Below, piece by piece: positions 15,915 to 21,127 of a DNA stretch of 21,545 nt. The notes beneath the pieces are model-generated. The model was not told the DNA's origin. It saw only the letters and a program-made list of their open reading frames with translations, and made no database searches. The stretch lies in the IMG/VR virus record IMGVR_UViG_3300023184_000583, positions 1-21,545 of that record; one strand, given 5' to 3'. Each line of letters starts with the position of its first letter. The first letter of the stretch is position 1. The stretch comes from a virus. The translations under genes and the position numbers were made by a program.

Positions 15915-16092
15915 AGATCAAATGGAAGCATTCTTAGCAGAGGATGCAAAATTTACAGCAGGTAATGCTGCTGCTGGAACCCGTGCTCGTAAAGCATTAG
16001 GTGAACTAGCCAAAGCTGTTAAAGCCCGCCGCAATGAAATCACTGCTGAGAAGAATGCCCGCAAGGAAGCTAAGGCATCAATGGGTCAATGA
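15892..16092 (+). CDS. Hc1-like small histone-type DNA-binding protein
   Basis: A 66-residue, Ala/Lys/Arg-rich protein. The central stretch GNAAAGTRARKALGELAKA followed by VKARRNEI resembles the core of the chlamydial Hc1 histone H1-like family, also seen in T4-like cyanophages. Such proteins bind DNA nonspecifically; a role in compacting phage or host DNA, or in tuning access for the recombination proteins, is inference. AGGA lies 9 nt before ATG 15892. The start is inside the preceding gene, and the stop overlaps the following start (ATGA), so all three are coupled. No Cys, no membrane segment. Confidence 0.75.
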   Translation: MTSTQQIKDQMEAFLAEDAKFTAGNAAAGTRARKALGELAKAVKARRNEITAEKNARKEAKASMGQ

Positions 16093-16517
16093 CTTGGTAC
16101 CATAAAGGTTCTATAGTTACAGAACTGCCCGAAGATTGCGTGGGATTTGTTTATCTTATCTCATGTAATACCTCTGGCAGGCTCTATATTGGCAAAAAAT
16201 TAGCAAAATTTAGTAAAACGACCTACAAGACTATCAAGTTGAAGAACGGCACCAAGAAGAAAAAGAAGATCAGAAGCAAAATAGACAGCGACTGGCAAGA
16301 TTATTATGGCTCAAACTTAGAACTCAACAAAGACGTTGAGTTATATGGCAAAGAAAACTTCACAAGAGAAATATTACATTATTGTAAAAGCAAAGCAGAA
16401 ACATCTTACGTTGAGGCCCGTGAACAATTCGACCGCAAAGTATTAGAATCACAAGAATATTATAACGGACAAATATCAGTCCGTGTCCATGGCTCCCACA
16501 TTATAAACAAAATTTAG
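16089..16517 (+). CDS. free-standing GIY-YIG endonuclease, SegE-like
   Basis: A 142-residue protein with a GIY-YIG nuclease core: GFVYLI (19-24) and GRLYIGKK (30-37). A Lys-rich loop follows (NGTKKKKKIR), then DSDWQDYYGSN, GKENFTREIL, a glutamate in SYVEAREQF (about 109), and a final YYNG (124-127). This arrangement fits the SegE-type phage endonucleases, which are often mobile or act as accessory nucleases. No intron or interrupted gene surrounds it, so it is free-standing. It overlaps the Hc1-like gene by 4 nt (ATGA), showing integration into the gp46/47 operon rather than a recent loose insertion. Whether it acts as a homing, repair or host-DNA nuclease cannot be told from sequence. Confidence 0.85.
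   Translation: MTWYHKGSIVTELPEDCVGFVYLISCNTSGRLYIGKKLAKFSKTTYKTIKLKNGTKKKKKIRSKIDSDWQDYYGSNLELNKDVELYGKENFTREILHYCKSKAETSYVEAREQFDRKVLESQEYYNGQISVRVHGSHIINKI
16502..16509 (+). promoter_or_regulatory. weak late-promoter-like motif (TATAAACA)
   Basis: TATAAACA differs from the T4 late consensus TATAAATA at one base. It lies in the last codons of the GIY-YIG gene, and a start about 6 nt beyond it would fall at 16515-16520, just before the first strand of the long-range stem of the candidate RNA. There is no convincing -35 box. The evidence is suggestive only. Confidence 0.25.
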
Positions 16518-17038: not shown

Positions 17039-17644
17039 ATGAAGATCGCACAGTTGTTAACAGAATTAGGTCCAAGAACTGATGCCCAACAAGCATCAAT
17101 GCAAGCGGCTGCTAGTGGAGCAAGACCTAATGCAGCACCATTACCTCAAGCAACTCCAGCACAGGGTGCTTATAGTGTAAGGAGTGCGTATGCACAACCA
17201 AATACTTTAGGTGCTACTACCTCTACTACTGCTACAACTACTGCTACTACCCCTACTACTGCTACTACCCCTACTACTGCTACTACCCCTACTACTGCTA
17301 CTACCCCTACTACTGCTACTACCCCTACTACTGCTACTACCCCTACTACTGCTACAACAGCAACTCCCAATGCAAATACATCTGGACCATCTTTAAGTCA
17401 GAGAATTGCACAAGGCATTGGCAAGGCAGGACAAGCCTATGGCGCAGTTACTGGCATAGGTACTGGTATTAAAAGGGCTATAGCTCAAGGTAAAGAAGCA
17501 GGAGCCACTGCAATAGGTGGTGCTGCTCCTGCTACTCCAGGTGCTAATGGCGCTAATGGCGCTGCTAATAATGATGATGAAGTTGCACAGTTGAAATCTC
17601 AGTTACAGATAATGCAACAGAAGCTAACAAGAGCCGGCATATAA
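17039..17644 (+). CDS. low-complexity Thr/Ala/Pro repeat protein, possible virion internal protein
   Basis: A 201-residue protein with no recognised domain. It begins MKIAQLLTELG, followed by an Ala/Gln/Pro-rich segment (10-60), a TTATTP repeat block (about 67-102), a Gly/Ala-rich segment with SLSQRIAQGIGKAGQAYG and GIKRAIAQGKEAG, and a short final coiled-coil-like helix (DDEVAQLKSQLQIMQQKL). No Cys. The first nine residues resemble the T4 capsid-targeting sequence MKTYQEFIAE: MK start, Gln at position 5, and a (L/I)-X-E end, the recognition pattern of the gp21 prohead protease. That would make it an internal head protein; this is inference. A good ribosome site and two late promoters support a late, abundant protein. 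Its end is 3 nt from the end of the opposing gene. Confidence 0.75.
   Translation: MKIAQLLTELGPRTDAQQASMQAAASGARPNAAPLPQATPAQGAYSVRSAYAQPNTLGATTSTTATTTATTPTTATTPTTATTPTTATTPTTATTPTTATTPTTATTATPNANTSGPSLSQRIAQGIGKAGQAYGAVTGIGTGIKRAIAQGKEAGATAIGGAAPATPGANGANGAANNDDEVAQLKSQLQIMQQKLTRAGI
17237..17344 (+). repeat. six perfect 18-bp tandem repeats encoding TTATTP
   Basis: The unit ACTACTGCTACTACCCCT occurs six times in a row without a change, 108 bp in all, in frame with the surrounding protein. Degenerate copies flank it on both sides. Identity at the third codon positions points to recent expansion or active copy-number change by slippage or recombination. Confidence 0.95.
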
Positions 17645-17647
17645 AAA

Positions 17648-17875
17648 TCAAAAGAACGGTAATCCAGATTCTTTAGTAGTTTCTAAATTCTCGTTGATTA
17701 TATCAGATATAATCATTCTGTCATCAATACACATCATATATGCTTGCTCTATGCTTAGAGCACCTCGCATAAACCAAGCCATCTTGTAAAGTTCTTTGAT
17801 TAAGGCTTTTGACTCGTTCTCTAATGATTTAACTTCATCCTGGATTTCATCCATGGACATAGTCAAAAGCCTCAT
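17648..17875 (-). CDS. small gp26-partner protein, possible tape-measure chaperone extension
   Basis: A 75-residue mostly helical protein (MDEIQDEVKSLENESKALIK, then ELYKMAWFMRGALS). Similar small genes follow gp26 in T4-like marine phages as far as I recall, but I cannot name a function. ATG 17875 overlaps the gp26 stop by 4 nt (ATGA). A second in-frame ATG at 17860 (MSMDEI) has GAGG 9 nt upstream and may be the real independent start. The frame is also reached from gp26 by a -1 slip at a T TTT TTC heptamer, which would fuse it to gp26 in a protein of about 364 residues. Its position beside gp26 and the tape-measure gene recalls the lambda G/T pair. Confidence 0.75.
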   Translation of the reverse strand: MRLLTMSMDEIQDEVKSLENESKALIKELYKMAWFMRGALSIEQAYMMCIDDRMIISDIINENLETTKESGLPFF

Positions 17876-18741
17876 GCGAAAAAATCAGAATCGTTAAAAT
17901 TAATAGGTACTGTGTAGGTTGCAGGAGCACCTAATTCTTGCTGCTCTTCTGTGGTATTGAACACCAAAGGTTTAAGATCGTTGTTCTTTTTAATCTCAGA
18001 CAAATGTGTTTGAACTTTATCAAATATTTCTTTGTCGGCATTATTAACAAACTCTGAAATAAATCGAGCATCAGTAACTTCAGTTTCACTTGTGATAATT
18101 TTATAAACACTTTCAGCCATTAATTCTACAGTAACTTTGGTAAGATTATTGAAACTAGCATTAAACATTTCTAATTTCTTTTCGTCATTAATACTTTCAT
18201 CGTTGACCATACTAAGTATTCTAGTTGTTTCAAAACTTTTGATACTAGTCTGTGTCATATGTTTGTAGGTTAGTGGTTTAACACAAATAATAAACTCTGG
18301 ATTAATAACAACTTGATCAATCCAATAATTACCCTGTTGTTGATCTAACAGCATTCTTAAATCGATCTCATAGTTAACTTCTTCATCAATTACAGGAATT
18401 TTATGTTTGAAAGGCATCTTCTCACCATATGTGGCTAATCTAATAGCGATCAATATAGTATCAAGATCAATGGTAGGTGTTGCCCAAGCATTCTTGATAT
18501 TTGGTATACAACTTTGGATAACATCAATTACTGCTTGTCCATTCATTAATGCATCGGGTGTTTTAAACAATAGTTCATCTCGTGCAGTCATTGAAAAAAC
18601 TGGAAGCTCTCCAGTTTCTGGAATATCAATGCTACCTTTTGGCCAAAAATCTCCTCTACTAGGTAAAGATATATATACCTTAGGTTGACGCATAAAGCTA
18701 GCTAAAGGGTTGTTTTTAGATTTGACTGGTTGTACTTGCAT
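17872..18741 (-). CDS. 26: gp26-family baseplate hub / tail assembly protein
   Basis: A 289-residue protein with the T4 gp26 pattern: QPKVYISLPSRGDFWPKG (20-37), ELPVFSMTARDELLFKTPDA (45-64), then GQAVIDVIQSCIP and LDTILIAIRLATYGEKM. T4 gp26 (208 residues) is a baseplate hub assembly protein acting around the tape measure gp29. Many relatives have a Cys pair after the YG motif; here that region reads HKIPVIDEEVNYEIDL with no Cys. GGAG 8 nt before ATG 18741 supports the start, and a GATAAATA late promoter lies 39 nt upstream. The end overlaps the next gene (ATGA) and carries the T TTT TTC heptamer at 17878-17884. It is divergent from the tape-measure gene. Confidence 0.85.
   Translation of the reverse strand: MQVQPVKSKNNPLASFMRQPKVYISLPSRGDFWPKGSIDIPETGELPVFSMTARDELLFKTPDALMNGQAVIDVIQSCIPNIKNAWATPTIDLDTILIAIRLATYGEKMPFKHKIPVIDEEVNYEIDLRMLLDQQQGNYWIDQVVINPEFIICVKPLTYKHMTQTSIKSFETTRILSMVNDESINDEKKLEMFNASFNNLTKVTVELMAESVYKIITSETEVTDARFISEFVNNADKEIFDKVQTHLSEIKKNNDLKPLVFNTTEEQQELGAPATYTVPINFNDSDFFA
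17878..17884 (-). promoter_or_regulatory. candidate -1 ribosomal frameshift site T TTT TTC
   Basis: On the minus strand gp26 ends GAT TTT TTC GCA TGA. The seven bases T TTT TTC are in the register required for a -1 slip (X XXY YYZ). After slipping, the ribosome reads CGC ATG AGG, the exact frame of the downstream small gene, with no stop between. A TGGAT-GAA-ATCCA hairpin exists but begins about 25 nt later, further than usual for a stimulator. Confidence 0.4.
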
Positions 18742-18814: not shown

Positions 18815-21127
18815 ATGACTGGCGCAACAGAAGCAACACTAGCAGACTTATTGGCAACAGCACAGGCCATGAATGTCAATCTGATTAAACTTCAGAATAT
18901 AATCAGTAGAGCAGGAACTGGTGGTGGTGGGGGAAGTAGTAGCAGTACAAGTAGCGGTGGAAGCCCTGCTAGTAGTGCCGCTAGTTTGTTGTCATCTTTT
19001 AATCCACTGTCAATGGCGTTCGGGGTACTTAAAGGAGTTGTTAGCGGAATTAGTAGTGTTTTTGGATTTTTGAGTGATGTAGTATCTACTGTTATCGGAG
19101 GTTTAAAAGGTGTTGCTGTAAATCTTTATGAATTTGCAAAAAGTACTGCAATGGGCACATCGAAGCTCAGTGAATTTTATGCAGCGTTTTCTGGTTTTCC
19201 AGTACTTGGAACATTCTTTGGAATATTAAGTGCTTTTACAGCTTATCAAGAAAACTTATTAGCGGTATATCAAAAACTCACAGATTCTGGTGCTAGTTTT
19301 GGAGGGTCATTGTCTGCTATGAGATCATCTGCTGCTAGAGCATATATGAGTATGGATGACTTTACTAAAATTGTACAAACAAATTCAGATTTATTTGCTA
19401 CAATGGGCGGTAATGTGCAAAGTGGTATTGATAAATTTGTAAACATTGCAGGTGGATTATATGGCCCTAAAAGCAAATATGGAAATATGTTAGCAGGATT
19501 GGGATATACTGCTGAATCTGCTGCTGAAACCCTTGCTCTCTATATGAGAATGCAAGGTACAATGAACAAACAAGATCTTAATAATTCAGAAAAAGTTACA
19601 AAAGGTGCTGCTGAATATGCTGAACAACTTTCCACTCTAAGTCAACTAACTGGTGAAAGTAATGCAGAGTTAAGGAAAAAACAACAAAAAGTATTAATGG
19701 AAGAAGCATTCCAAGTTTATCTTTCTACTCTTAAGGGTGACAACGCTAAAAAAATTGGTGTGGTATTACAAGAGATTATTCAAGGTGGCGGAGACGAAGC
19801 TGCTGAATTTTTTAAAAATGCAGCAAGGGGTGCAAATGTAGCACAAACTAAAGCTCAAGCTGACATGGATTCATTGACTGGTGGTGCTATGTCTAAGCTA
19901 AACAAACGATTGCTTGACGCAATAAATGCTGGTGTAGATACAAAAGAACTTGTTAAAATGGCTAGAGTTGGTTTGTTAAATGCAGGTAATGAAGGCGCTA
20001 AACTACTAACTCAAATTGGTGCTGCCCAAGGATCAGTTGCAGTTCAACAACAGATGCTAGCTCTAGCAACACTTCTTAAAACACGAAGAACCTATCAAGA
20101 TGAAGCAACATTAAAAGAAGCTGAGAACAAATCAGCAAAAGATCGAGCCAAACAGGCATCTGGATCCGCAGCAGCATTAGAGCAGAGTTCAAAAGCTATC
20201 AGGTCCTTTGGCGACGAACTATTAAACATGATATATGGTGCTATAGTACCAATGGTACCATTTTTAAAAGACTTTGCACAATGGGTATTAAAAGCAGGAA
20301 TCGCTTTGTTAAAATTAGTGCAAGAATATTTGCCACTAATAATTAAAGGAGTAAATGGAGTCTGGGAATGGTTTAAAAATACTTTAGCTGAAATGAAAAA
20401 AGCATATACAGAGAAAGGATGGTCTGGTGTATTTGATGTAATGGGTGAAAAAGTATCTCAGCTTTGGGATGTTGTTAGAGGTCCTTTAATAAAGATGTTT
20501 GATAACTTTCTTGAGTTCTTCAAACCGTATGCAATTAATATGGTTAATGTTGTAGAAGATTATGTTAATGCCATACTTTACAAAAAGTTTGGCTCCGCTG
20601 GAGGAGAAGATCCAGAATTAAGAAAGCAACAACGACACATAGAAAAATTAGGAGCCGAAGTAAATAGATTAGTTCGTGCAGCAGAAGATATACAACAAGA
20701 AGGTAATCAATCAGCAATTGATGCAGCAAGAGATGCAGCTCGTGCAAAAATAAACGAAACAAATCAGGCTATTGAAGCATATAAAAATGCTAACAATGGC
20801 AGGGCTTTTCTTTGGGGAGATAACAAACCTCGAAATATTGATCCATTGATGTTTCCAAATGCTAACCGTCATAGTGGCACTATAGGAATGACAGGTAGTT
20901 GGTGGGAAAAACAAGATGCTACTCTAAATGTACAAGCTGGGGAGTCTGTGGTAACACCTAGTCAAATGGCTCAGCTTACAGGTCAGAACGGCGTTGCAGA
21001 AGGCATACAACGGTTAAATAGTCTTACTGCACAGTTATTAGCGGTTATGAAACAGAACACGGATTATACCCAACGTAATTATAATGCTACTAAAGAATTG
21101 GGCGGTAACTTATTTGCAACGGTATAA
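18815..21127 (+). CDS. tail tape-measure protein
   Basis: A 770-residue protein that sets tail length and is probably injected with DNA. A Gly/Ser-rich linker spans residues 35-60. Hydrophobic helical segments lie at about 62-105 and 124-145 (PVLGTFFGILSAFTAY) and at 468-512 (GAIVPMVPFLKDFAQWVLKA), possible membrane-inserting regions. Long Ala-rich helices fill 225-460, a charged coiled-coil-like stretch lies at 598-660, and the C-terminus has HSGTIGMTGSWWE and NVQAGESVVTPSQMAQL, typical tape-measure endings. T4 gp29 has 590 residues; at about 0.15 nm per residue, 770 residues suggests a tail near 115 nm (inference). The ribosome site is weak (GGTGA, 10 nt). It is divergent from gp26, which would assist it, and 24 bp before the portal gene. 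Confidence 0.85.
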   Translation: MTGATEATLADLLATAQAMNVNLIKLQNIISRAGTGGGGGSSSSTSSGGSPASSAASLLSSFNPLSMAFGVLKGVVSGISSVFGFLSDVVSTVIGGLKGVAVNLYEFAKSTAMGTSKLSEFYAAFSGFPVLGTFFGILSAFTAYQENLLAVYQKLTDSGASFGGSLSAMRSSAARAYMSMDDFTKIVQTNSDLFATMGGNVQSGIDKFVNIAGGLYGPKSKYGNMLAGLGYTAESAAETLALYMRMQGTMNKQDLNNSEKVTKGAAEYAEQLSTLSQLTGESNAELRKKQQKVLMEEAFQVYLSTLKGDNAKKIGVVLQEIIQGGGDEAAEFFKNAARGANVAQTKAQADMDSLTGGAMSKLNKRLLDAINAGVDTKELVKMARVGLLNAGNEGAKLLTQIGAAQGSVAVQQQMLALATLLKTRRTYQDEATLKEAENKSAKDRAKQASGSAAALEQSSKAIRSFGDELLNMIYGAIVPMVPFLKDFAQWVLKAGIALLKLVQEYLPLIIKGVNGVWEWFKNTLAEMKKAYTEKGWSGVFDVMGEKVSQLWDVVRGPLIKMFDNFLEFFKPYAINMVNVVEDYVNAILYKKFGSAGGEDPELRKQQRHIEKLGAEVNRLVRAAEDIQQEGNQSAIDAARDAARAKINETNQAIEAYKNANNGRAFLWGDNKPRNIDPLMFPNANRHSGTIGMTGSWWEKQDATLNVQAGESVVTPSQMAQLTGQNGVAEGIQRLNSLTAQLLAVMKQNTDYTQRNYNATKELGGNLFATV

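Follow-up and report, generated by a model that had tools for sequence, protein, structure and literature searches.

The window, as the whole 21,545-nt stretch of viral DNA analysed here is called, carries a homologue of the T4-type gene gp26 on the minus strand. Its 289-aa product matches PF12322 (T4_baseplate) with E=3.7e-10 and 40.3 bits (curated cut-off 24.5), and phrog_150 with E=2.3e-13. The predicted fold resembles those of gp26/baseplate hub assembly proteins of viruses (E-values down to 1.6e-22); a fold search of solved structures returned generic helix matches only, with no clear match to a known chaperone. The end of the gene overlaps a small ORF on the same strand, and a long gene lies divergently on its other side. 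The features are as follows.

17872..18741, minus strand: gp26 homologue, 289 aa, PF12322 (T4_baseplate) and phrog_150; zero-frame short product, proposed TAC-N (gpG-like)
17884-17878, minus strand: slippery heptamer T TTT TTC in the -1 register, codons 287-288 of the gp26 homologue
17651..17884, minus strand: -1 extension that begins at the slip and spans 78 codons (FFRMRLL...GLPFF), proposed to form the C-terminal part of a 364-aa fusion (TAC-NC, gpGT-like)
17648..17875, minus strand: 75-aa ORF whose ATG overlaps the gp26 stop (ATGA); start position not conserved
17861..17873, minus strand: 5' arm of a stem, GAGGCUUUUGACU, with core GGCUUUUGAC (17871-17862), from folding z-score and covariation
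17802..17814, minus strand: 3' arm of the stem, AGUCAAAAGCCUU, which pairs with the 5' arm
18815..21127, plus strand: divergent tape-measure-type neighbour, 770 aa, phrog_14121 (E=2.8e-9), putative function; proposed chaperone client

The gp26 homologue ends in GAT TCT GAT TTT TTC GCA TGA on the minus strand, which sets T TTT TTC in the exact register for a -1 slip, as the first-pass annotation had noticed. The first -1 frame stop after the heptamer is a TGA at 17650-17648 (minus strand). The predicted fusion comprises 286 + 78 = 364 residues with the junction DSDFFRMR, in agreement with the uninterrupted -1 frame and the length of about 364 residues given earlier. The small ORF also has a second ATG at 17860. 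T TTT TTC occurs in register only once in the 5,823 codons of the main genes of the window. Slippery heptamers in register, whatever their sequence, number 37 in the same codons of this AT-rich DNA, and the heptamer alone is therefore not convincing.

The neighbouring gene at 18815-21127 belongs to the family of RaK2_00088, which is annotated as similar to tape measure protein. A homologue of this phrog_14121 family lies divergently beside gp26 in 69 of the 90 loci with enough upstream sequence; in Atu_ph07 the family gene is not adjacent to gp26. The gene pair had been described as lying directly beside the tape-measure gene. The adjacency is borne out; the neighbour is divergent and is itself a putative tape measure gene.

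Beyond the -1 ORF, a 201-aa ORF at 17039-17644 (plus strand) contains an 18-bp tandem repeat in 8.3 copies (17212-17355) that encodes a linker rich in Ala, Thr and Pro. A distance of 3 nt separates the stop of this ORF from the end of the frameshift ORF on the opposite strand, and Pfam and PHROG profile comparison gave no family match for it. Positions 16089-16517 (plus strand), next to gp46/gp47-type genes, encode a SegE-like GIY-YIG homing endonuclease (PF19835, E=1e-31).

Conservation of the heptamer, the -1 frame and a downstream stem

Relatives were gathered as 80 loci from a scan of viral contigs and, via tblastn, from annotated jumbo phages, among them PA5oct, RaK2, CBB, GAP32, 121Q, Munch, Atu_ph07 and Phosso; a scan of cellular genomes found none. 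Counts for the lineage refer to 58 representatives with less than 80% identity to each other. A copy of the window (L001) was left out of these counts, as was a close relative (L045) in which an early stop breaks the gp26 frame, probably through a sequencing error or in a decayed copy.

The heptamer T TTT TTC is present in 56/58 representatives, and the remaining two (XacN1 and CM1) have T TTT TTT. It is kept across gp26 proteins with identities as low as about 26-30%. The codon preceding its full Phe codons encodes T, D, N, S, H, R, A or Y in the 58 representatives and always ends in T. The base following the heptamer is G in 55 of them, and the base preceding the T run is never T in the lineage. 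Elsewhere in the genes of the window lineage, 1 of 10 other Phe-Phe pairs is spelled TTT TTC, and the codon use of these genes gives a chance of ~0.07 per lineage for the exact spelling once two Phe codons are given. The alignment of relatives proposed in the first-pass annotation thus shows heptamer and register kept while the surrounding codons vary.

The -1 ORF is open in all lineage representatives over 69-80 codons. Its frame is -1 throughout, including cases in which the stop of the zero frame has shifted from 10 to 40 nt past the heptamer, and the ORF is contiguous with gp26 in every relative of the lineage. Relatives without any slippery heptamer, with the second ORF in another frame or with the two genes spaced apart had been named as potential counter-evidence; within the lineage of the window each of these classes is empty. 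Substitutions in the tail ORF at codon positions 1/2/3 number 2616/1403/4433, and the median dN/dS of 0.22 indicates purifying selection. Within 18 codons downstream of the slip, 28/43 close representatives contain no ATG. The codon-position pattern, the dN/dS value and the missing ATGs together indicate that the second ORF is protein-coding, mostly without an ATG of its own near its start. The objection that the small ORF has its own ATG consequently holds for the window, where such codons are present, and fails for most of the close relatives, among which the starts are not conserved.

A stem of 13 bp follows the heptamer after a spacer of 4-6 nt and encloses a loop of about 46 nt. The earlier statement that no hairpin sits at the optimum distance is wrong; the stem is easily overlooked by eye, its arms being distant in sequence. 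The minimum free energy in the window is -26.8 kcal/mol compared with -13.6 +/- 2.5 in 200 shuffles (z = -5.2). Across 34 relatives, 89.6% of cells are paired and seven pairs show two-sided changes. In the same 34 sequences the stem has a covariation score of 0.233, compared with 0.102 for shuffles; sliding the partner gives 0.068 at most. The score exceeds all 500 shuffles and all slid controls. The pair adjoining the stem core has changed on both sides in 15-16/34 sequences.

The stem beats codon-order shuffles at p<=0.05 in 44/58 representatives. Its position is retained where its sequence is not: L051 has a stem at the same spacing formed by GAGGAUCUUAACUU with AAGUUAAGAUCCUU, in which the 3' arm has moved, XacN1 builds one at this spacing from another sequence (CCAUCAAGUCC with GGACUUGAUGG), and so does Atu_ph07. 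In RaK2/GAP32-type phages, the stem search mostly gave results no better than codon-order shuffles, and some jumbo phages (BF, GAP32-like relatives) have no strong stem at the usual place.

Cyanophages, T4 and the origin of the long form

The same heptamer marks the cyanophage gp26/gp51 genes (Kyanoviridae type, for example Synechococcus phage Sf-FS3). T TTT TTC lies exactly 10 nt before the gp26 stop in 81/81 cyanophage-type loci, with gp51 as the tail ORF in the -1 frame. The final Phe-Phe pair is TTT TTC in 64/64 distinct cyanophage gp26 genes, a spelling found in 0/64 other Phe-Phe pairs of the same genes. The stimulator differs from that of the window: instead of a conserved downstream stem, the cyanophages have GGAGGG, apparently a Shine-Dalgarno element, at a distance of 9 nt upstream of the heptamer. 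The element uses GAG in 58/64 genes, compared with a share of 25% among the Glu codons there. An internal Shine-Dalgarno stimulator is known from dnaX, and the cyanophage element resembles it. The cyanophages also differ in keeping an ATG for gp51, 5 nt after the gp26 stop; because this ATG is conserved, cyanophage gp51 may also be made alone.

More distant members of the family extend this pattern. In two rhizobiophages a -1 ORF accompanies T TTT TTG or T TTT TTC. The T TTT TTC of an uncultured 595-kb phage lies 70 nt before the stop, inside an open -1 frame. Three further loci are arranged otherwise. In Bacillus phage SP-15 (L185, 1177-2118) and the 484-kb phage LR756508 (L186, 1201-2200), it is the +1 frame that encodes the gp26 tail domain. 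Towards its end, SP-15 gp26 contains a T6 run that is out of register (AATTTTTTCAC); given this run and the frame of its tail, SP-15 may use a +1 or -2 shift. Pseudomonas phage Cygsa01 (L187, 1072-1982) has its tail ORF in the -1 frame, with no heptamer and a start at TAATG; its lineage has possibly lost the frameshift and uses coupling.

Coupling could be proposed for the window as well. A separate 75-residue protein would then start at the ATG of the ATGA overlap, and the T run would reflect chance or the conservation of Phe-Phe. The two ATGs in the window, the conserved ATG at +5 in cyanophages and the Cygsa01 arrangement are in line with such a scheme, yet the absence of an early ATG from 28 of the 43 close representatives, the heptamer codon choice and register that stay fixed while neighbouring amino acids vary, and a covarying stem placed to suit the heptamer make it very improbable. 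Transcriptional slippage at the T6 run would add a base to some messages and give the same fusion without a ribosomal slip, and the run does comprise six T, or seven in XacN1 and CM1. A polymerase is indifferent to codon register, yet every lineage keeps the register of a tandem tRNA slip. The run is moreover capped by C in 56/58 representatives and, since the base preceding it is never T, is not lengthened; the spacing of the stem and the Shine-Dalgarno-like element of cyanophages suit a ribosome. We regard this explanation as the least probable of those considered.

The comparative evidence instead supports the fusion of gp26 to the small ORF by programmed -1 frameshifting, which the first-pass annotation had likened to lambda G/GT. 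On these sequence grounds, the end of the gp26 homologue is very probably a programmed -1 ribosomal frameshift site.

T4 itself is organized differently. Its gene 26 junction was considered as a frameshift site and rejected, as no -1 extension follows and gene 25 comes next in overlap. The Pfam family of the window protein also includes T4 gp26 and the N-terminal 201 residues of T4 gp51, but T4 has two genes where the window has one gene and a frameshift. T4 gp51 consists of a PF12322 domain (residues 1-201, E=4e-52) and a C-terminal tail for which the cyanophage -1 ORF is a match (E=1e-8). The tail profile of the window matches the cyanophage/T4 tails moderately, with a probability of 81% and E=1.2e-5 in a single comparison for which the best of 40 shuffled decoys reached 0.008. 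In a tree, gp26 and gp51 of T4 and Aeromonas phage 31 cluster (91/92) apart from the frameshifting lineages, a grouping that is not firm because the branches are long.

Since gp51 joins a paralogue of gp26 to a related tail in one reading frame, T4 seems to have exchanged the frameshift for gene duplication and fusion, which is the simplest reading. We lean slightly towards a history in which the frameshift is ancestral for the long form of the T4-type chaperone and was kept in jumbo phages, cyanophages and rhizobiophages, while T4 gp51 arose from a duplicated gp26 and the former frameshift tail; the jumbo-phage branch would have evolved its own covarying long-range stem-loop, and the cyanophages the upstream Shine-Dalgarno element. 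With the full frameshift signal spanning the T4-type gp26 family in these three groups, T4 looks like the exception. T4 gp51 is an essential protein whose role was long obscure and catalytic-looking; it gains a concrete and testable role as a GT-like form.

In many gp26 homologues, a zinc-ribbon-like motif of the CxxC... type (for example CGHEW or CPHCQHQW) stands a short distance ahead of the slippery site. It occurs in the C-termini of L081, L088, L089, L096, L097, L103, L104 and T4 gp26/gp51; the window protein is without it.

Proposed role of the short and long products

Most ribosomes would terminate normally at the gp26 stop and give the 289-residue protein. A minority, held by the RNA stem-loop 4-6 nt ahead, would slip back by one base with tRNA-Phe on UUU in the P site and on UUC in the A site of U UUU UUC. 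The slipped tRNAs would re-pair with UUU UUU, and continued reading would yield the 364-residue protein with its extra helical tail. AlphaFold2 predicts this tail domain as all-helical, with four helices and a pLDDT of 87; a comparison of its fold with viral models produced no match with an E-value under 1. The short form (TAC-N, as lambda gpG), expected to be abundant, would coat the tape measure protein; tail tube subunits would be recruited by the long form (TAC-NC, as lambda gpGT), expected to be scarce, and neither would stay in the virion. Slippage and its rate are inferred here, as are the tape measure and tube proteins as binding partners, the latter from lambda.

The short and long products are likely to be tail assembly chaperones, and their client is probably the divergent tape-measure-type protein next to them. 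The tape-measure-type neighbour, the CBB virion data and the short/long pair fit this assignment. In phage CBB, the gene at the place of this neighbour (CBB_251) yielded 29 virion peptides, and CBB_250 (gp26) and CBB_249 (tail ORF) are missing from the virion mass spectrometry table (PMC5259590), an absence that is weak evidence. The lambda gpG/gpGT system (Xu, Hendrix and Duda 2004, as cited in the excerpted text of PMC5009743) likewise has an overlapping ORF pair near the tape measure gene, a -1 slip near the end of the first ORF, short and long forms, a helical tail domain and products absent from the virion, the last being judged on the window side from the CBB table. The window differs from lambda in that PF12322 is not a lambda-type chaperone family, the heptamer is T TTT TTC, a long-range covarying stem-loop is present, and the pair is divergent from the tape-measure-type gene rather than directly upstream of it.

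The frameshift could be real and gp26 nevertheless a structural protein of the baseplate hub, so that the fusion would have a baseplate role and not one as tape-measure chaperone. Family and record names (T4_baseplate, baseplate hub) point this way, as does older T4 genetics that put gp26 in the hub (PMC3004832). Against a structural role stand the same review, which counts gp26 and gp51 among the hub assembly chaperones, the absence of gp26 from the CBB virion table, the layout of a short/long pair beside a tape-measure-type gene, which is that of a chaperone, and the title of a 2022 paper, which names such genes tail assembly chaperones. A baseplate role consequently appears unlikely. If the pair are tail assembly chaperones, many jumbo-phage genes are wrongly labelled 'baseplate hub'. 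A frameshift would also account for the frequent omission or wrong start of the tail ORF in jumbo-phage records.

A 2016 review describes the G-T tail frameshift as conserved in long-tailed phages 'except T4' (excerpted text of PMC5009743), and the 2022 title names, for T4-like tail assembly chaperone genes, a mechanism distinct from frameshifting. A short copy together with a fused long copy is described for some T4-like phages (PMC10885494), and TAC-N genes of T4-like phages are said to have poly-T signals (PMC12846349). The first-pass annotation knew of no frameshift reported for T4-type gp26. This is partly true of the wider family, but excerpts of papers that cite the 2022 study credit it with T4-like chaperone genes and poly-T signals (PMC10885494, PMC12846349). 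Phage Adele (Vandenendeviridae/Andersonviridae) resembles the window in its invariant poly-T and unbroken -1 frame, read as TAC-N/TAC-NC; it differs in its GTTTTT motif and separate phage families, and no covarying stem is reported for it in the excerpted text (PMC12846349). Among the papers searched, with the 2022 T4-like chaperone study represented by its title and citing papers, none describes the jumbo-phage frameshift signal or its stem.

The BFVD matches of the gp26 model include uncharacterised 500-aa proteins of Erwinia phage Special G and Ralstonia phages RP12/RSF1 (E about 1e-6, TM about 0.5). These model-based matches suggest that the 500-aa phage proteins are distant chaperone candidates.
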